From Bradyrhizobium erythrophlei (lineage in GTDB: Bacteria; Pseudomonadota; Alphaproteobacteria; Rhizobiales; Xanthobacteraceae), in the NCBI RefSeq assembly GCF_900129505.1, contig NZ_LT670818.1, forward strand, positions 3,629,001 to 3,693,000: a stretch of DNA of 64,000 nt, in the 5' to 3' direction. The first letter of the stretch is position 1, and every line of letters begins with the position of its first letter. A program made the translations under genes and the position numbers. A model generated the notes under the pieces. That model searched no databases and was not told the DNA's origin. It worked only from the letters and a program-made list of their open reading frames with translations. Shown here one piece after another: positions 71 through 13,933 of this stretch.

Positions 71-145
71 GGGCGCGTAGCTCAGCGGGAGAGCACCTCG
101 TTGACATCGAGGGGGTCACAGGTTCGATCCCTGTCGCGCCCACCA
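71..145 (+). tRNA. tRNA-Val (anticodon GAC), CCA encoded
   Basis: A complete cloverleaf can be read. The acceptor stem GGGCGCG pairs with CGCGCCC, the anticodon stem CCTCG/CGAGG encloses the loop TTGACAT (anticodon GAC), and the T arm contains GGTTCGATCCC. CCA is encoded at 143-145. The gene is the attachment target of the downstream islands: its 3' part is repeated perfectly at 13858 and imperfectly near 19119. Confidence 0.95.
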
Positions 146-162
146 TCTCCAGGCAGTTGATG
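87..162 (+). repeat. attL core, 76-bp direct repeat with 13858-13933
   Basis: Bases 87-162 are identical to 13858-13933 and include the tRNA-Val 3' part plus 17 bases beyond CCA. The flanks differ on both sides, so this is the left attachment core of an integrated element. The tRNA stays intact on this side. Confidence 0.92.
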
Positions 163-248: not shown

Positions 249-1244
249 ATGGCGAGCATCCGCAAACATAGAGACAAATGGCAAGTCCGTATTAGACGGG
301 CAGGCCTCCAACCCTTGTCCAAGTCGTTCTCCCTTAGGAAAGACGGGGCAGAATGGGCAAGACAGATGGAGGTGAAAGCCGATCGAGCCGAGCTTCCAAC
401 CGACCTGAAGGCCCTGCAGCGGATCACCCTGGCTGACTTGGTTGTTCGCTACCGAGACACGGTGAGCGTGAAGAAACGAGGGTACGAGAATGAACGTATT
501 TCTCTCACCGCATTCCTCCATCACCCGATATGCTCCAAGCGACTCTCAGATCTTCGTACGGAAGACTTTGCAGCGTACCGGGACCAGATGCTGCAGACGG
601 TCAAACCCACCTCACTGAAGCGCTACCTCGACCCCATCCATAATCTATTCGAAGTCGCAAGACACGAGTGGGGAGTGCCACTCAGAGACAATCCCCTCGG
701 CAGGCTGAAACTGAAGGCTCCCTCTCAGCGGCGAGAACGACGACTGCTGAGTGGAGAATGGGAACGTATCCTTGAGGCGGCTCGCCTCTGCCGCAACCCT
801 TGGATCGAACCTATCATTCGGCTCGCGCTGGCAACGGGAATGAGGAGAGGGGAGGTCCTGGCTCTTGAAGACAACCAGATCGATCTAGAGCGACGATCAC
901 TCCTCATCAGAAAGACGAAGAACGGTCATGCACGGACTATTCCGCTGACCGTCGAAGCAGTGAGAATTCTGGGACAATTGCTGAGGGGACGGCTAGGACC
1001 TCTATTTCCTATCACGAGGAATGCCTTCCGCTTGGCGTGGGAGCGCCTCCGGGAGAGAGCGGATCTTGGGGACTTTCATTTTCACGACCTGCGCCACGAA
1101 GCTATCAGTCGATTCTTTGAACTCGGATTGAATCCGCCCGAGGTTGCTCTCATCAGCGGCCACCGGGATATGCGACAACTCTTTCGCTACACGCATCCTC
1201 TTCGAGAAGGCATCATCGACAAGATGGACAGGTCCACTTCATGA
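249..1244 (+). CDS. Tyrosine recombinase / island integrase
   Basis: This 331-residue site-specific recombinase integrates and probably excises the island at the tRNA-Val 3' end. An N-terminal arm-binding and SAM-like core-binding part covers roughly residues 1-150. The catalytic domain follows, with R199/R200 in TGMRRGE, a lysine near 222-224 in the beta-hairpin, H279-x-x-R282 in HDLRH, H305 in SGHRD and the nucleophile Y314 in FRYTHP, so the active site looks complete. The ATG at 249 is 104 bases beyond the tRNA and transcription runs into the island. The family is certain. Activity is inferred from intact residues and perfect att repeats. Confidence 0.93.
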   Translation: MASIRKHRDKWQVRIRRAGLQPLSKSFSLRKDGAEWARQMEVKADRAELPTDLKALQRITLADLVVRYRDTVSVKKRGYENERISLTAFLHHPICSKRLSDLRTEDFAAYRDQMLQTVKPTSLKRYLDPIHNLFEVARHEWGVPLRDNPLGRLKLKAPSQRRERRLLSGEWERILEAARLCRNPWIEPIIRLALATGMRRGEVLALEDNQIDLERRSLLIRKTKNGHARTIPLTVEAVRILGQLLRGRLGPLFPITRNAFRLAWERLRERADLGDFHFHDLRHEAISRFFELGLNPPEVALISGHRDMRQLFRYTHPLREGIIDKMDRSTS

Positions 1245-3164: not shown

Positions 3165-4346
3165 CTATGATCTTAGGGACTCTACTAAGGAAGCCGACTT
3201 CGGATCGTACACAAAATTCGAAATAGTGCCGGCTCTGATCTTCTGAACTACCTCGTCGATTACGAAGAGCGGAACGAGAAACCATTCGCGCGGTACTATT
3301 GGTTGCCCGAAGCGGTCCTTAATCTCAATATCGAGACGCGCCGACTCAAATACCCGGTGGATCAGTTTTTCCAGTTTCGTGCGACTGATGTTGTAAAGCT
3401 CATAGTTAGCAACGACATCCACATCTGCCATGAGAAATGTCGGCTGGAGTCTCGCACCAGCGATACGCTGATCGACGCTCATACTTGTCACGCCGATTTT
3501 ATGGATCAGGTCACGATTCGCCGCGACCACCGGATGTTCGGACTTGCTTCGCAGCACGTAGATAGTGCCCGTTGCCTGATCATCCTCTGCGTACTGGTCA
3601 GAGAAGAGCGGACCCGCAACCGGATCGGTAATTCGTCGGCCCGCTTCGTCTTTGTGCAACGCCCGTTGAAGCGAGCGCATGAGCATGTTGCTTTCGGTCC
3701 TATTATCGAAGATCACGCGGAGACGCGCGTCCGTACGGCCTTGGGTGTTTGTAAATACCTTACCCATCTTGGCGACATACGCCTTCTGCCCTCCGACAAT
3801 AAACATTGTGCCGGGCGCAATCTCCGCCTTTAATTCAAATGGTCGAGTCCCTCTGATGCCGGATTCGATCTCTTTCTGAACCTGCTGAAAGATTGGCTTG
3901 AACCGATCAAAATCCTCGCATTTCTGACGGTTAGCAATTTCTTCAGCCGCGCGTTTCTCCGTGCTGGTACGGACATGGCGGAGTTGGGTGATATCAGACG
4001 AACCTGCTGCGCCCTCCAATTCGGCGAGCAACTCGTCCTCACTCATCAACCCTTCATACACGGCAGGGGCAGCTTCTGATTTGGTTAGTAGGCCCTGATG
4101 ATCAAGAGGCTTGAGAAGGAATCGACATTCCTCAAGCGCGCAAAGCCGGTCAAGACGGACGGCGTAAAGCCTTTCGAAGATGTCGCGGTCCTCGCCGTGT
4201 TGGGGCGCACGTCCATGCTCTTGGGCAAAACGCTGGATGTCCTCAAAGCCCGCGAGGATACGCTCGTGGCGCAGGGAGTGCCCACCCTTCTTATCCGGCT
4301 GTGCGAAATCATCAAGTTCGGAGCGCAGATCGTCGAGGTCAGTCAT
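3165..4346 (-). CDS. GIY-YIG (T5orf172-like) nuclease-domain protein
   Basis: This 393-residue protein is the last gene of the minus-strand defence-like operon. The first half is helical and charged. The C-terminal part from about residue 275 has GTIYVLRS, then HKIGVTS and a following arginine region, a glutamate-containing helix (KLEKLIHRVF) and REWF, the order expected of the GIY-YIG T5orf172/Mug113 type. I chose the ATG at 4346 because AGGAT/GAGGG lies just upstream. It overlaps the helicase stop by 8 bases, implying translational coupling. The likely role is the DNA-cleaving subunit of the methyltransferase-helicase system. Specificity is unknown. Confidence 0.75.
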   Translation of the reverse strand: MTDLDDLRSELDDFAQPDKKGGHSLRHERILAGFEDIQRFAQEHGRAPQHGEDRDIFERLYAVRLDRLCALEECRFLLKPLDHQGLLTKSEAAPAVYEGLMSEDELLAELEGAAGSSDITQLRHVRTSTEKRAAEEIANRQKCEDFDRFKPIFQQVQKEIESGIRGTRPFELKAEIAPGTMFIVGGQKAYVAKMGKVFTNTQGRTDARLRVIFDNRTESNMLMRSLQRALHKDEAGRRITDPVAGPLFSDQYAEDDQATGTIYVLRSKSEHPVVAANRDLIHKIGVTSMSVDQRIAGARLQPTFLMADVDVVANYELYNISRTKLEKLIHRVFESARLDIEIKDRFGQPIVPREWFLVPLFVIDEVVQKIRAGTISNFVYDPKSASLVESLRS

Positions 4347-6513
4347 AGCGACCCTCATCCTTGAACCGGACGAAAGCGGCAGCGCCCTCAGCCATCCGCT
4401 TCTCCCAGGCATCTGATGAGCTGATCGAGGGGAGACGACCCCGTTCCTTTTTGAATTTAACAGCCCGGAACGCTAGGTCTTTAGCCTCCTCCGGTGTCAG
4501 GCTTGTACGCTTAGCCGCAATTGCCGCCGCTACCTGCTTCAAGCTATCCTCGCTCATCGACTTAGCGAGGATCGCATAGGCTTCTCCGAACGGGTTGACA
4601 CGGTCGATTAAGTCAATGTCCAGTTCGCGCACATCCATCGCAAACTTGCGTACGCCGTCAATCAAGGCAGTATTGGAATTCTGTTCCGCGTCACGTTCTC
4701 CGATCGCAAGCTGCTTGGCTTGTTGCGTCAGGTTGAGGGCAGCGATGGCGTGCTGACGAACCGCCTCCTGATCCCCCTCATCGAGTCCGGGGTATTTGTC
4801 CTTGATTATCTTGCCCATCCGGACCCTGGTCAGTTCCTCGGGCACAAGCTCATCATCAAATATACCGCGTTCGATAGCGGTCTTGTCCTGAACGAAAGCA
4901 GCAATCACCTCGGTCAGGTCCTCCTGGCATATCCGCGCGGCTTCCTTGCTCTTGGGTTCGGTCAGACCTTTGATCTCGATCTGGAATTGACCGGTCTGGT
5001 GATTGAAGCCTACGTTACATTTCTTTGGATCGTATCCCTGATCGCCGTAGTCGAAACCGTCGATCGGCCCGCTAGTAGGATTCTTCGGCGTGAAGTTGAA
5101 ACGCGGTGCAAGGACCTGCTCCATAAGAAGGCTGGCCGCGATGGCTTTGAGTGTATCGTTAACCGCCTCTCTAACGGCCTCCTCGGTGGCGTCGGGTTCC
5201 GCGATCAGGTTGGTAAAGCGCGCACGGGTCTTGCCAGGCGCATCTCTGGTAGCGCGGCCGATGATCTGCACAATCTCTGTTAGACTCGATCGATAGCCAA
5301 CCGTCAGCGCATGCTCACACCAAATCCAGTCAAAACCTTCCTTCGCCATGCCAAGTGCGATGATGAAGTCTACATACTCGCGATTGTTCTTCTGTGCTGA
5401 GTCCTTCAGCGATGCTGAAACGCGGTCGCGCTTTGCGGTGTCGTCATCGACCAAGTCGGCGATCTTGAGCACACGGCCATCGGGCCTCTTGACCAACTGA
5501 AAGCCGGTGACCGGATCAGTTCCCTGCCATTCGCCCAACTCCTCGATGATATGCTCGACCTCCCTGATTTTGTCTTTCGTGCTTTCTCGCGAATTGACAC
5601 TCGGAATGTGGACGATCGTCTTCTCGGTCGGGTCGAGCACTTTTAGGATGTCGTCGGCATAGGAGCCCGAGTAGAAGAAATAGCCGATGTCGAGTTGTTT
5701 CAGATATTCGTAGCCATTCAGCTGCTCGTAGTAGGTGTACGTGACCGTATCGAACTTCTCCTCGTCCTCCGGTGAAAGCACCGCCACAGCATCGCCCCGG
5801 AAATAGGAGCCTGTCATTGCGACGATGTGCACCTTGTCGCGGGCAATGAACTGGCCGAGATGTAGGCCGAGCTTATTGTCGGGGCTGACCGAAACGTGGT
5901 GAAACTCGTCAACGGCAATCAACCGGTCGTCGAATTTCTCAACACCAAACTTGTCCACGGCGAAACGAAAGGTCGCATGGGTGCAGACGAGCACCTTGTC
6001 CTCGCTTTCGAGGAAGGCTCCAACTGAACTAACCTTGCCGCCTTCGGATCCTGGCGCGTTGCAGAGGTTCCATTTTGGCTGAACGGTCCAGTCGGCCCAA
6101 AAGCCTAACTTGGTTAGCGGCTCGTCGCTGAAGCTCGCGCCGATGGATCTTTCCGGCACAACGATGATCGCCTGCTTGAGACCCTGATTATAAAGTTTGT
6201 CGAGAGCAATGAACATGAGCGCGCGGCTCTTACCCGAAGCGGGGGGCGACTTGATTAGAAGGTATTGCTCACCGCGGCGTTCGTAGGCGCGCTCCTGCAT
6301 TGGTCGCATTCCAAACGCATTTGCGCGCGTTGATGCCCCAGTCCTGGCGTAGGTAACGGAAACAGAAGGCACGTGGCCTGAAGAAATCATCGTCGGCCGA
6401 CGAAGTTTGGCCGCTCGAAAGAACGCCTCGTCCGCCTCCGAAATGTCGGAAGTGTCGATCGCTCCATCTGGCAACGCAGCCAACTCAGATAAGCGCTTTT
6501 TTGAGATAGGCAT
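4339..6513 (-). CDS. SF2 DEAD/DEAH-type helicase with BrnA-like N-terminus
   Basis: This 724-residue ATPase has a Walker A PPASGKS (90-96), DEFHH (202-206) as motif II, TGS as motif III, and QIIGRATR as motif VI, all typical of SF2 translocases in restriction systems. Residues 1-40 (RLSELAALPDGAID, TSDISEADEAFFRAAK) match the conserved N-terminal segment of BrnA antitoxins. The gene starts inside the end of brnT (29-base overlap), where brnA normally starts. The ribbon-helix-helix part of BrnA is absent. ATG 6531 is an alternative start. The helicase family is secure. The BrnA fusion is a pattern match by eye. Confidence 0.85.
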   Translation of the reverse strand: MPISKKRLSELAALPDGAIDTSDISEADEAFFRAAKLRRPTMISSGHVPSVSVTYARTGASTRANAFGMRPMQERAYERRGEQYLLIKSPPASGKSRALMFIALDKLYNQGLKQAIIVVPERSIGASFSDEPLTKLGFWADWTVQPKWNLCNAPGSEGGKVSSVGAFLESEDKVLVCTHATFRFAVDKFGVEKFDDRLIAVDEFHHVSVSPDNKLGLHLGQFIARDKVHIVAMTGSYFRGDAVAVLSPEDEEKFDTVTYTYYEQLNGYEYLKQLDIGYFFYSGSYADDILKVLDPTEKTIVHIPSVNSRESTKDKIREVEHIIEELGEWQGTDPVTGFQLVKRPDGRVLKIADLVDDDTAKRDRVSASLKDSAQKNNREYVDFIIALGMAKEGFDWIWCEHALTVGYRSSLTEIVQIIGRATRDAPGKTRARFTNLIAEPDATEEAVREAVNDTLKAIAASLLMEQVLAPRFNFTPKNPTSGPIDGFDYGDQGYDPKKCNVGFNHQTGQFQIEIKGLTEPKSKEAARICQEDLTEVIAAFVQDKTAIERGIFDDELVPEELTRVRMGKIIKDKYPGLDEGDQEAVRQHAIAALNLTQQAKQLAIGERDAEQNSNTALIDGVRKFAMDVRELDIDLIDRVNPFGEAYAILAKSMSEDSLKQVAAAIAAKRTSLTPEEAKDLAFRAVKFKKERGRLPSISSSDAWEKRMAEGAAAFVRFKDEGRYD

Positions 6514-6769
6514 CGAAGTGCTTTCTTTCATTCGCTGTCGCCTTGCGGGCGCTAATGATGCGGATTTTTCCACACTGTTCGGTGTGAATCAGACAGACAA
6601 CGACAACGCCGCCCAAGAGGCCAAAGCTCTTTTCGCGGTACTCGCCATCGCTGTCATCCGGACCTGTCAGCACTGGCCCATTGAAAATAGAAGCAGCCTC
6701 CTCGAAAGACAGACCATGTTTATGCTTATTCGCAGCGTTCTTCGCTGGGTCCCAGTCAAACCCATCCAT
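6485..6769 (-). CDS. brnT: BrnT family toxin
   Basis: The 94-residue product has the BrnT layout: FDWDPAKNAANKHKHGLSF at the N-terminus, a central beta region, and the C-terminal KIRIISARKA.NERKHF block of this RelE-fold ribonuclease family. BrnT toxins cleave RNA and are normally neutralised by BrnA, encoded immediately downstream and overlapping. Here the overlapping downstream frame is a helicase that begins with a BrnA-like segment, and no free brnA gene is visible. The toxin sits between the methyltransferase and the helicase, 77 bases after the former. Confidence 0.88.
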   Translation of the reverse strand: MDGFDWDPAKNAANKHKHGLSFEEAASIFNGPVLTGPDDSDGEYREKSFGLLGGVVVVCLIHTEQCGKIRIISARKATANERKHFDAYLKKALI

Positions 6770-6846
6770 TCAAGCCCCCCGGCGATCCCAGTACCTTCAA
6801 TGTATGTTTCCATTCACACTCCGTCCAGAGCCACTAAGCCTCTCAC

Positions 6847-9600
6847 TTAAGGATTTGGTGCCACTTTAGCGTCCGCTCTTACCTTTACCGCCCGTAATTT
6901 GATGTAGAGGTCGAACAGCTTTTCGAGCCGCTCCGTATCGTTCTTGAAGCGACGGCCGATATATATGCGCTCGAGTATCTCGTCGTTGCGCTCGTGGGCC
7001 TCGCGCAGGTCGGCAGGCATATTGTCGGGATCGTAAAGATCGGCGAGCGTCGCGGGAAAATGCGCCTCGCGCGCCAACAAAATATCCTCGGCGCAGCGAG
7101 TCAGGTCGATCTTATTCTTTTCAGTCAGAGTTGGAACTGGGAAGGTGTTATAGCAAAGAGCTGAGGAATAGCGCAGACGCATTTCCAACCTACCTGCTAA
7201 GGTGCGAACCCACGACATGTGAACTAGGCTTAGCAAGATGGACAAGTGCCATAATGAAGCATCATAAATCACTTGAGCTGAATCACTGACGATGCAGTTT
7301 TCGGAAAGAACGCCGAAAGGAATGTATAGTCTCCGTTCTGAAGAGACTCGCGGAGCGATGATCAGATGAGAGCTCGCTTGGTGTGTGTAGCGAAACTGAT
7401 GCGGGCGTGAGACAAGACCGCTCGCGACCTGCCCACCGCCCGACCGAAATTGGCGTACTTTTTCGATCCTGTCTCGAATTTCGGGGATTGCGCTTGCCGC
7501 CGAAAGACTTTGATCGTCAATCCACAGGCAATACCGCTGCTCGTTGTTGAGGTATTCGTTTGATCCATACAGCCGCTTGATCAAGTTAGCGGCATCCGGA
7601 TGGTCGCTTAGCAGCTTGGACCGTTCGTTGGCCGAGAGAATTAGATTGCCGCCATCGTAAGGGCTGTTGCCGGTAATAATCGGCATTAACTTGGAAAGTG
7701 GAGCCAAGGACTGAGAAACGACTATTTCATTTCCAGGCACCAAGTATGGGCCAATGCAACCCACCTCCCTCGCAAGTCCATCTTCAAACAGCATCTTCTG
7801 CTTTCGCCCACGCCTTTCAAGCCCAATGATTGAGCAAGCGACCGCTGCATTGTTCGCGGCGTTGTTGGTCCATCGAAAATCCTTATGCGCGAAAGAAATC
7901 TCGATCCCAAGGTTGAAAATTCGAGGCCAGAGTTGATGGACTTGCGCTCCCTGATTTACTGAGTTTGTTGCCACAAAAGCTACTTTGGCTGCCTCACGGG
8001 CTACATACGCGGCGCCCTTTAGCAGCCAGGCCGAGACGTAGTCGAGTTCGCCAATCTTCTCACGCGTCCCGAAGACACTCGTTAGCTCAGCCTTTTGTTC
8101 TGCTGACTGGCCCTTCCCGCCTAAGTACGGGGGATTACCGCAGATATAGGTTTCGCCTTCTTCGCTCTCAAAATCGATCTGCGCCTGATCCAGCGGCGTA
8201 TTAAACAGATCGTCCGAAGTGTGCTTCACGCTCGTCCCTGTCGGCGGACAGATGCTTAGCCAATCTAGCCGCAGCGCGTTGCCGCAGGTGATCCAGCTTT
8301 GCGCATCGAGTGGCAGGAACTCGGCTAGGGCTTCCTTCTGGCCGAGATAGAGCACGTCGCACTGATATTCGGCGATTATGAGCGCCAAGCGCGCAATCTC
8401 GGCTGGAAAGTCGCGCAGCTCGATTCCTCGGAAGCTGGTGAGCGGAATTTCGGTGTGCCTGTCAGTCTCGCCGCGTAACCGGTTGATCTCGGCTTCGATC
8501 GCCCTCATCTCCTTGTATGCGATGACTAAGAAGTTGCCTGATCCGCAGGCTGGATCGAACACCCTGATCTTCGACAGCCGTTTGCGCAGATTTAACAGTG
8601 TGCGAGGATTTTCACGTGCTTCCTCAAGCCGTGCGCGCAGGTCGTCGAGAAAGAGCGGATTGAGTACCCTCAGAATGTTCGGCACGCTGGTGTAGTGCAT
8701 GCCGAGTGCACCGCGCTCTTCGTCTTCTGCGACCGCTTGGATCATCGATCCGAAGATGTCTGGGTTGATCTTCGTCCAGTCGAGATTGCCGATATGGAGC
8801 AGATAGGAGCGCGCAATTCGGCTGAAACGCGGCGCGTCCATATTGCCCGAGAACAAGCCACCGTTCACGTAGGGAAACGTTTCGGCCCATCGAGGTATAT
8901 TGGCACTCGCCCTATCCTCAATCCTCGTGTTCATCGCGCGGAACAGCTCGCCAATTACCTCATGGGTGTTGGACGAGTCCCTCGCGCTCATCCGCTCGGT
9001 GGTGGCCGTGAAAAGGATCGTGCCGTTGAAAATGCCTGTGTCCTCGGCGAAGAAGCAAAAGATCAATCGCGCCATGAAATGGTTCATATCGCGGCGGCGT
9101 TCGGTTGTTCCCCACTCGGGATTGTCCTTCAGAAGCTCGATGTAGAGCCGGTTCAGACGGCTGGTCGCCCTGATGTCGAAAGAGCTCTCGCGGACCTGCT
9201 TGACGGTCGCGATTCCTGCCAGCGGTAGGAAGAAACCAAAGTGGTCCGGGAAGTCCTGATAAGCGCAGGCGACCGTCTCGCCGATCGTCAAATCCTCGGC
9301 CTCAAAGTCCAACCCATCCGTCGCAAGAATAAACCTCGCCTTAGCTTTGGTCGTGGCCGAACTTGCCCTTAGCGCGACAAGGGTCTTCGTTACCTCACCG
9401 GTTGGACAGACGGCGAGATGGATGTTGTTTGTCTGAAGAACGCCGCCCAGGTCAGACTTGTTTGATGCGCCCGAGCGTAGCCGCTTGATTGTCGTCGGCT
9501 TGTTTCCGAAGGCTTCAAGGAAGGCAAACGGGAATTCTTGAGCGTCGAAGGCCTGCTCAGCCAACGCGGAAATCGCTTCTTCAATCTCAACGGCGTTCAA
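6847..9600 (-). CDS. MmeI-like class I SAM-dependent DNA methyltransferase
   Basis: This 917-residue adenine-N6 methyltransferase has an MmeI-type N-terminal region, a helical spacer with FMARLIFCFFAEDTGIF (175-191), motif I DPACGSGN (349-356), motif IV NPPY (489-492), then a target-recognition and C-terminal region. I see no D-EXK nuclease signature in the N-terminal part, unlike MmeI itself, so cutting is probably done by the GIY-YIG protein. The start is a TTG with a purine-rich stretch upstream. No in-frame ATG precedes the conserved region. It is the second gene of the defence-like operon. Confidence 0.88.
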   Translation of the reverse strand: MNAVEIEEAISALAEQAFDAQEFPFAFLEAFGNKPTTIKRLRSGASNKSDLGGVLQTNNIHLAVCPTGEVTKTLVALRASSATTKAKARFILATDGLDFEAEDLTIGETVACAYQDFPDHFGFFLPLAGIATVKQVRESSFDIRATSRLNRLYIELLKDNPEWGTTERRRDMNHFMARLIFCFFAEDTGIFNGTILFTATTERMSARDSSNTHEVIGELFRAMNTRIEDRASANIPRWAETFPYVNGGLFSGNMDAPRFSRIARSYLLHIGNLDWTKINPDIFGSMIQAVAEDEERGALGMHYTSVPNILRVLNPLFLDDLRARLEEARENPRTLLNLRKRLSKIRVFDPACGSGNFLVIAYKEMRAIEAEINRLRGETDRHTEIPLTSFRGIELRDFPAEIARLALIIAEYQCDVLYLGQKEALAEFLPLDAQSWITCGNALRLDWLSICPPTGTSVKHTSDDLFNTPLDQAQIDFESEEGETYICGNPPYLGGKGQSAEQKAELTSVFGTREKIGELDYVSAWLLKGAAYVAREAAKVAFVATNSVNQGAQVHQLWPRIFNLGIEISFAHKDFRWTNNAANNAAVACSIIGLERRGRKQKMLFEDGLAREVGCIGPYLVPGNEIVVSQSLAPLSKLMPIITGNSPYDGGNLILSANERSKLLSDHPDAANLIKRLYGSNEYLNNEQRYCLWIDDQSLSAASAIPEIRDRIEKVRQFRSGGGQVASGLVSRPHQFRYTHQASSHLIIAPRVSSERRLYIPFGVLSENCIVSDSAQVIYDASLWHLSILLSLVHMSWVRTLAGRLEMRLRYSSALCYNTFPVPTLTEKNKIDLTRCAEDILLAREAHFPATLADLYDPDNMPADLREAHERNDEILERIYIGRRFKNDTERLEKLFDLYIKLRAVKVRADAKVAPNP

Positions 9601-9783: not shown

Positions 9784-10662
9784 CTAAAAGAGGGTCTGCT
9801 GCTTCGGACCCCTAGAATGCTTATGCACTTTTGTTATGTAGAACGTTTTAGTCTCATAGGCTCCGACAAAATCATTGATTTCTTGCTCTGCAACGAGATC
9901 GACCGTCAGGGTGTCGCCCTGCCCAAACTCATATTCATGGTTTGCCAGCTTCTCAAAGAAACTGTCGTCGCGTATGTCGGCTGAGATTTTTTGACCCCGC
10001 CAGAGGAACTGCCACTTCCGTTTTGATTTTTCCAATACTGCCGTCAAGACGACAACGGGTGCTCGACTGTGGTATTCTTCTCTCTTCTTTGGGAGTGCGG
10101 GTAATTCAACTTCGGGAAGATCGCGAAGAGTGGCGAATTGATTTTTTTCAATGGGCATGACCGGTTGGTTAGGTGCAATCGGCCGACGAAAATCAACAGC
10201 GGTCACGTTGGAGTCACTTTCGACAATGCTGAAGAACTTACGAACCGTGCGCCGGACGGCTGCATCATGGTCCACTCGTTCGACGGTCTTAGCCGCGTCC
10301 TTCGGCAAAATGATCTTTTCACTTCCGTATTCAACAACGTAAGAATTCTCATCAACGACAATTGTCACCGTATCAGACATGAGTTTTGTGACGACGACGG
10401 CAATCAAAATTGGAAGGATCAACAGCGTAACTGGAGCATGTAGTAGTGTTTGAGTATCCTTTTGGAAGATCCGAATTATCGTTCTGATGCTACCTTGGTC
10501 AGAACTTATAAATTCGACTTCAATCTCTCGCCCGGGATTTGCGGAGGCATTGATGGCGCGATAAAGCTCGTCGAACGCCAGCAACGCATTCGCGAATGTT
10601 TGTGCATCGATTCCCGGACCCGCTATCTTGAAATACAGAAGGATCTCTTCGTCAGGGGACAT
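9784..10662 (-). CDS. Hypothetical protein with one central membrane segment
   Basis: This 292-residue protein starts at ATG 10662 (MSPDEEILLYFKIAG) with AAGGG about 12 bases upstream. An N-terminal soluble part of about 95 residues is followed by one hydrophobic stretch near 103-121 (LLILPILIAVVVTKLM) and a long charged C-terminal part. I do not recognise the family. It is the promoter-proximal gene on the minus strand ahead of the methyltransferase, so it may belong to the defence operon as a membrane-anchored accessory or sensor. The 183-base gap makes that uncertain. Confidence 0.6.
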   Translation of the reverse strand: MSPDEEILLYFKIAGPGIDAQTFANALLAFDELYRAINASANPGREIEVEFISSDQGSIRTIIRIFQKDTQTLLHAPVTLLILPILIAVVVTKLMSDTVTIVVDENSYVVEYGSEKIILPKDAAKTVERVDHDAAVRRTVRKFFSIVESDSNVTAVDFRRPIAPNQPVMPIEKNQFATLRDLPEVELPALPKKREEYHSRAPVVVLTAVLEKSKRKWQFLWRGQKISADIRDDSFFEKLANHEYEFGQGDTLTVDLVAEQEINDFVGAYETKTFYITKVHKHSRGPKQQTLF

Positions 10663-10862
10663 TGTGTGGGACACCCTTAAATCGACGACCAAGCGGCAAA
10701 CCGCGACACCAAACTATGACATGCGCGCCTTGGTCGAGGGAACCAGGAATTTCAACCGGATCACAAGCTGCGCTCTCAGGGCTGGAGTTGAGTTTGCGGT
10801 GCGACAAAGAGCGCGGCCACGGCAACGGCTCTTTTCAAGGCCTCTGACCAGGGTCGATTCCT

Positions 10863-13857: not shown

Positions 13858-13933
13858 GGGAGAGCACCTCGTTGACATCGAGGGGGTCACAGGTTCGATC
13901 CCTGTCGCGCCCACCATCTCCAGGCAGTTGATG
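13858..13933 (+). repeat. attR core, 76-bp direct repeat with 87-162
   Basis: It is identical to the attL core and contains the tRNA-Val 3' part from the D-arm to CCA plus 17 bases. The 5' part of the tRNA is missing, so this is not a functional tRNA gene. Sequence after it (13934-14000) resembles the island left end (163-213), for example ATCGAGAACT, suggesting that a second related island begins here. Confidence 0.92.

Follow-up and report, generated by a model that had tools for sequence, protein, structure and literature searches.

Related systems

BrnT and BrnA, whose original description is reportedly that of Heaton in 2012, form type II toxin-antitoxin modules in which brnT comes first, a second gene overlaps it, and the product of that gene carries the BrnA N-terminal segment. 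These traits recur in a 64,000-nucleotide stretch of Bradyrhizobium erythrophlei DNA (here called the window; contig NZ_LT670818.1, positions 3,629,001 to 3,693,000 of the forward strand), where a brnT gene is overlapped by the gene for a superfamily 2 (SF2) helicase whose first 40 residues, the arm, resemble BrnA. Unlike the described modules, the locus has an SF2 motor of ~650 residues in place of the DNA-binding part of BrnA, and its candidate antitoxin is not a small free protein. Natural fusions of BrnT to BrnA are also described in the available portion of PMC11980606.

The genes around brnT have the same order of MmeI-like methyltransferase, SF2 helicase, and T5orf172 nuclease as the DnmA(YeeA)-YeeB-YeeC system, as that system is presented in the accessible parts of PMC7261158 and PMC9973331. 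That system comprises three genes, whereas the locus adds a fourth, brnT, in the junction, together with the arm on the helicase.

Guards of restriction systems have been described as well. PrrC on EcoprrI, Ronin, and PARIS act when restriction is inhibited, according to excerpts of PMC12707154 and PMC12409349; PrrC and Ronin tie a toxin to a restriction-type locus, much as brnT lies inside a cassette operon here, and PARIS is a separate sensor. The original prediction for this locus, made from the DNA letters alone, had called such a guard arrangement not known, a statement that these systems correct. Guarding of restriction systems is already known; what sets this locus apart is that its motor subunit incorporates a recognizable antitoxin segment from a known toxin family. 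BrnT-like genes also occur directly upstream of RtcR-associated CoCoNuT systems, giving a BrnT-like RNase ahead of a defense operon as at this locus, and the accessible text (PMC11090510) describes no BrnA segment on the defense motor. No report of an antitoxin segment within a restriction motor, or of an antitoxin-helicase fusion, was found in the open-licence literature.

A BrnA-like arm on the helicase

The brnT gene (6485..6769, minus strand) encodes a predicted BrnT-family ribonuclease toxin of 94 amino acids (aa) (Pfam PF04365 BrnT_toxin, 78.5 bits, cut-off 34.5), and its nearest solved relative in the PDB is 7vd7_A (53 bits). It occupies the junction between the methyltransferase and helicase genes, directly before the latter (4339..6513, minus strand; 724 aa), with which it shares 29 bases (6485-6513). 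The helicase frame begins where brnA should begin, as originally predicted.

In profile searches the arm, helicase residues 1-40 (6394..6513, minus strand), corresponds to the BrnA N-terminal segment without the ribbon-helix-helix. The likeness ends where the ribbon-helix-helix would begin, and that position is taken by a linker (residues 41-67; 6313..6393, minus strand) that differs in length and sequence among relatives. Beyond it lies a YeeB-like motor matched by Pfam DEAD, ResIII, and Helicase_C, each below the Pfam cut-off; matches in PADLOC and NCBIfam are weak (PbeA, 17.8 bits; dnd_restrict_1, 16.1 bits against a cut-off of 600). PF14384, the BrnA ribbon-helix-helix family, has no match in the 724-aa helicase and none at the locus in a genome scan, in keeping with the predicted replacement of this domain by an SF2 motor. 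The predicted absence of a free brnA also holds: the window contains none, and the genome's three BrnA matches above the Pfam cut-off are located elsewhere.

Since the Pfam BrnA model gave nothing on the N-terminal residues, the comparison relied on profiles built from the arm and from free BrnA. Against a profile made from 34 free BrnAs, the window arm reaches 69.5 bits, and all 10 arm-bearing rows of the survey described below range from 33.8 to 74.7 bits. As controls, the best of 1000 shuffles of the window arm reaches 8.2 bits and the best of 194 arm-less helicase rows 0.9. The reverse search, with a profile of 12 helicase N-termini against 5.8 billion sequences, recovers free BrnA (PF14384) at E values of 1e-15 to 1e-13 among the matches listed (the best 120 of 1002, which also include helicase fragments), and these free BrnAs are 47-73% identical to the arm over the aligned part. 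The nearest free BrnA is identical to the window arm at 28 of 40 residues, with a range of 22 to 29 of 40 across eight distinct arms. Among the best 120 of 7999 helicase homologues, 26 have the arm. These scores indicate that the helicase N-terminus is BrnA-derived and that the match is beyond chance. The BrnA profile comparison proposed with the original prediction thus succeeded with free BrnAs and failed with the Pfam model.

The solved complex 7VD7 suggests what such an arm might do, as its antitoxin, chain B, comprises 44 aa of BrnA and stops short of the ribbon-helix-helix. Among PDB entries the arm profile matches this chain best, although weakly (18.5 bits, E 0.014), and a distant free BrnA matches 7vd7_B at 3e-6. 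Correspondence of the arm to the BrnA part bound to BrnT in 7VD7 is supported by these comparisons. A model of a natural BrnT-BrnA fusion has a predicted local distance difference test score (pLDDT) of 72-82 in the BrnA N-terminal part and a predicted template modeling score (pTM) of 0.63.

BrnA N-terminal segments without a ribbon-helix-helix also occur apart from helicases. Free proteins of 62-73 aa (e.g., P0167, P0208, and P0214) keep the N-terminal 40 residues of BrnA. These half-BrnAs were set aside as evidence for a toxin-binding part, since P0167 had no match among plasmid records and the sole half-BrnA in a surveyed genome (L222) has no brnT within its 3.1-kb locus. Three viral contigs (L218:3001-3078, L220:3001-3066, and L221:3001-3075) carry the BrnA-like motif IDTSDIPEAT and the sequence following it, within open reading frames (ORFs) of 226, 112, and 444 codons, respectively, from stop to stop and with no visible ribbon-helix-helix. 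Judged by this motif, their products could mimic BrnA and bind BrnT.

Start site and selection

In all eight distinct arm loci the helicase starts at an ATG with a short Shine-Dalgarno (SD)-like motif before M1, GAAAG in seven and AGGA in one; in the window, the stretch with this motif (GAAAG; 6514..6533, minus strand) lies inside brnT. The overlap with brnT is 29 bases in seven of these loci and 26 in the eighth, and the brnT frame is open in each. SD-like motifs are also found before internal starts in L155 and L017. Two database entries lack the arm because of where their starts were called: P0003, which is the window's own helicase, begins at M42, and the start of P0119 was probably placed within the linker. 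Start calling may therefore conceal this architecture in annotated genomes.

The P0003 entry would suit a history in which a brnTA pair inserted upstream, the 3' half of brnA was lost by chance in-frame fusion, and the true helicase start is M42. This is very improbable, given the recurrence of the arm in 26 helicases, the SD-like motif before M1 in all eight loci, and an M42 that is not common to relatives and is preceded by no SD-like motif. Selection and co-divergence argue against it too. In ten pairs drawn from five close loci, the ratio of nonsynonymous to synonymous divergence (dN/dS) is 0.10-0.20 for brnT, 0.04-0.17 for the helicase core, and 0.06-0.38 for the arm, the last being noisy with ~29 synonymous sites; dS is partly near saturation, and the gene overlap itself constrains 29 bases. 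By these ratios, purifying selection is acting on brnT and the arm. Across the eight loci, BrnT and arm distances are correlated (r 0.91, Mantel p 0.0004), and the partial correlation given the helicase core is 0.89. In two Burkholderiales loci, BrnT is 34-36% identical to that of the window, whereas the helicase core is 81-82% identical.

Coupled presence of arm and brnT

The survey comprised 204 helicase rows: 80 named-genome loci (the best 80 of 551), 35 viral contigs, four genome surveys (in one of which 30 of 40 matches were taken in), and the window, which is counted also as L010. The arm is present in 10 of the 204 rows and brnT lies upstream in the same ten, neither occurring without the other; in all ten, the methyltransferase gene also lies upstream and the nuclease gene follows downstream. 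Removal of two duplicates leaves 202 rows, of which 8 have arm and brnT, none has one alone, 188 have neither, and 6 have too little upstream DNA. With assessable arm-less rows defined by at least 450 bases upstream, and with some near-copies remaining among them, brnT is directly upstream in 8/8 distinct arm loci and absent in 188/188 assessable arm-less rows. The neighborhood survey suggested with the original prediction therefore found one without the other in 0/196 assessable rows; neither observation that its author thought damaging, a lack of BrnA similarity or an arm without brnT, was made. L091, a locus from a genome labelled as belonging to the same genus as the window, shares its BrnT and arm sequences with L012 (Bradyrhizobium manausense). 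A later survey added L231, with arm and brnT sequences as in L011, and three rows with neither. None of the 35 viral-contig helicases has the arm, and phage records yielded two partial helicase matches only.

On supported branches of the helicase trees, the arm changes at least four times among 141 loci and at least nine times among 130 rows, counts that leave out P0003 and P0119. The arm makes 7 changes on the 141-locus tree, and 57 of 500 shuffles gave a count that low, so its clustering is not beyond chance. Repeated arm changes on the helicase trees stand against two groups among the BrnTs of arm loci, of which one is a long branch with an uncertain position; brnT and the arm thus seem to be transferred or lost together as a block.

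The cassette and its cargo slot

On the minus strand the gene order is methyltransferase, brnT, helicase, nuclease. The methyltransferase (6847..9600, minus strand; 917 aa) is MmeI-like and DnmA/YeeA-like (Pfam MmeI_Mtase, MmeI_TRD, MmeI_N, MmeI_hel, and MmeI_C; PDB 5hr4) and is scored by PADLOC as type IIG at 944.5 bits. The methyltransferase of DnmA-YeeB-YeeC clusters is without the N-terminal nuclease motif of MmeI; here the alignment to MmeI 5hr4 begins at residue 87, and the N-terminal nuclease part falls outside that alignment. A gap of 77 bases (6770..6846, minus strand) separates the methyltransferase stop from the brnT start. The YeeC-like nuclease (3165..4412, minus strand; 415 aa) is of GIY-YIG type with a T5orf172/MUG113 domain by Pfam and has no match in PADLOC or NCBIfam. 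Beside the methyltransferase lies a minus-strand gene (9784-10692) that scores 147.6 bits against LAPAL in NCBIfam and also matches the PADLOC candidate PDC-S42.

Sequence comparison identifies the methyltransferase-helicase junction as a cargo slot of the cassette family. The methyltransferase end could be placed in 180 rows, 90 with at least 150 bases before the helicase and 90 with fewer than 150; in the Nitrobacter plasmid NC_007960 the slot is empty and the methyltransferase and helicase genes overlap by 4 bases. Nine of the occupied slots hold brnT. Grouping the longest ORF from each of the other 81 gives 26 clusters, so that brnT appears as one occupant among many; two of the cluster representatives lie on the opposite strand and could be spurious. 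A Pfam scan covered 20 representatives and matched 12, leaving eight without a match and six outside the scan. The domains found are RhuM, DUF1016/YhcG nuclease, PDDEXK_4, Schlafen AlbA_2, Mrr, zeta toxin, two PIN domains, GmrSD N, FRG, DUF559, and CoiA N. PADLOC, run on 7 slot representatives, gave no match.

BrnT might have become a structural part of the cassette, no longer a toxin, with BrnT-arm binding assembling a methyltransferase-helicase complex. Two database proteins, P0260 and P0263, join an MmeI-like methyltransferase C-terminal domain to BrnT in one frame, which speaks for such a clamp. However, at 226 and 256 aa they are without most of the methyltransferase, and brnT in the window is a separate gene. 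Moreover, in 153 of the 194 arm-less rows the methyltransferase, helicase, and nuclease genes occur together although brnT is absent, and all eight BrnTs retain residues typical of the family, such as R-I/V-I-S-A/V-R. A purely structural role is consequently quite improbable.

The island

The whole cassette is held in a compact 13.8-kb island between exact direct repeats of 76 bases, att-like in appearance (87..162 and 13858..13933, plus strand), which take in most of a tRNA-Val gene, the presumed integration site (71..145, plus strand). A tyrosine integrase of the island (249..1244, plus strand; Pfam Phage_integrase) is encoded inside, and the G+C content of the island is 0.534, against 0.628 for the remaining window to its right.

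A cassette carried by an integrative element could contain a toxin-antitoxin module simply to kill cells that lose the island, with the antitoxin moved onto the helicase and no sensing of invaders. Because the island looks mobile, this addiction role is ranked second, and the repeated arm changes on both helicase trees are also as expected of a moving module. On the other hand, a free brnTA pair would serve the same end without fusion to a motor, and addiction leaves unexplained the many unrelated junction genes, some with nuclease or toxin domains. We regard addiction as the main function as possible but doubtful.

The helicase as a candidate antitoxin and guard

The favored reading is that the helicase of a DnmA-YeeB-YeeC-like restriction cassette doubles as the BrnT antitoxin. 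The arm would be the toxin-binding part of BrnA and would keep BrnT inactive, an SF2 motor having replaced the DNA-binding ribbon-helix-helix. BrnT, made from the adjacent overlapping gene, would thereby be slaved to the motor, with the RNase silent as long as the helicase is made and intact. Loss, degradation, or disabling of the helicase would free BrnT and stop the cell. The main use of this arrangement would be a built-in backup, or guard, behind restriction, and stabilization of the island would be a by-product. The guard role is ranked first because the motor itself bears the antitoxin part and the slot has several predicted nucleases and toxins among its occupants.

These parts of the proposal are not equally secure. 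Profile similarity, co-occurrence, gene order, and purifying selection make it quite likely that the helicase serves BrnT as its antitoxin by binding and neutralizing it. Given neutralization, a guard as the trigger has a little less than an even chance. For the whole reading, the helicase as BrnT antitoxin with the guard role included, we estimate a probability of roughly 0.4.

Several observations weigh against this reading. The Pfam BrnA model finds no match at E<=1 on residues 1-69, and the link of the arm to 7VD7 is indirect: a PDB search with the window arm alone brings up unrelated chains (best E 0.007) but misses 7vd7_B, as does a search with a close free BrnA. The AlphaFold model of the helicase is unusable (pLDDT 52). 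Among the eight loci, L017 offers an internal TTG (residue 51) with a stronger SD-like motif in front of it, and brnT lacks an ATG in two (an in-frame GTG in L179 and TTG in L017 would serve). With correction for kinship, four of four supported independent pairs are concordant, a small effective sample (p 0.125), and no arm was found in plasmid records among 60 of 184 listed, where the first matched residue is 23 or later. Loss of the BrnA ribbon-helix-helix would remove the usual operon repression, so that autoregulation would be missing. Finally, DnmA-YeeB-YeeC of B. subtilis restricted neither plasmid uptake nor three tested phages, as stated in the available parts of PMC7261158 and PMC9973331, and because of this lack of an anti-phage effect active restriction cannot be assumed. 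The same sources report that deletion of dnmA or yeeB in Vibrio crassostreae raises sensitivity to some phages.

Release of BrnT could instead follow successful recognition, with a helicase that engages foreign unmethylated DNA dropping BrnT from its arm in a form of abortive infection. A variable-length linker joining arm and motor would suit such release, and accessible parts of PMC12839542 describe operon-encoded backup effectors in BREX, including a HEPN effector fused to the core ATPase, whereas at this locus the antitoxin segment is what is fused to the motor. No sequence feature couples arm release to ATP or DNA, and the helicase model is too poor to offer one. Release on recognition is unlikely, although we hold it less remote than the structural role above.

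Implications

If the helicase is indeed both antitoxin and guard, the locus shows how a toxin can become physically attached to a restriction system, through relocation of the antitoxin's toxin-binding part to the motor and not through co-regulation, and the safety of the cell from BrnT may depend on the presence of that motor. Tentatively, the guard would be hard-wired: any phage product able to eliminate or inactivate the motor would free the RNase. In that event brnT would be one of many interchangeable cargo genes, and this common family may carry an entire set of second-line killers, each tied to the cassette in a different way. The reading would direct attention to a cargo slot with several predicted nuclease or toxin occupants and would make the guard idea directly testable through helicase residues 1-40. 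For a cassette family that seemed inactive in its B. subtilis member, it would also suggest a function to test.

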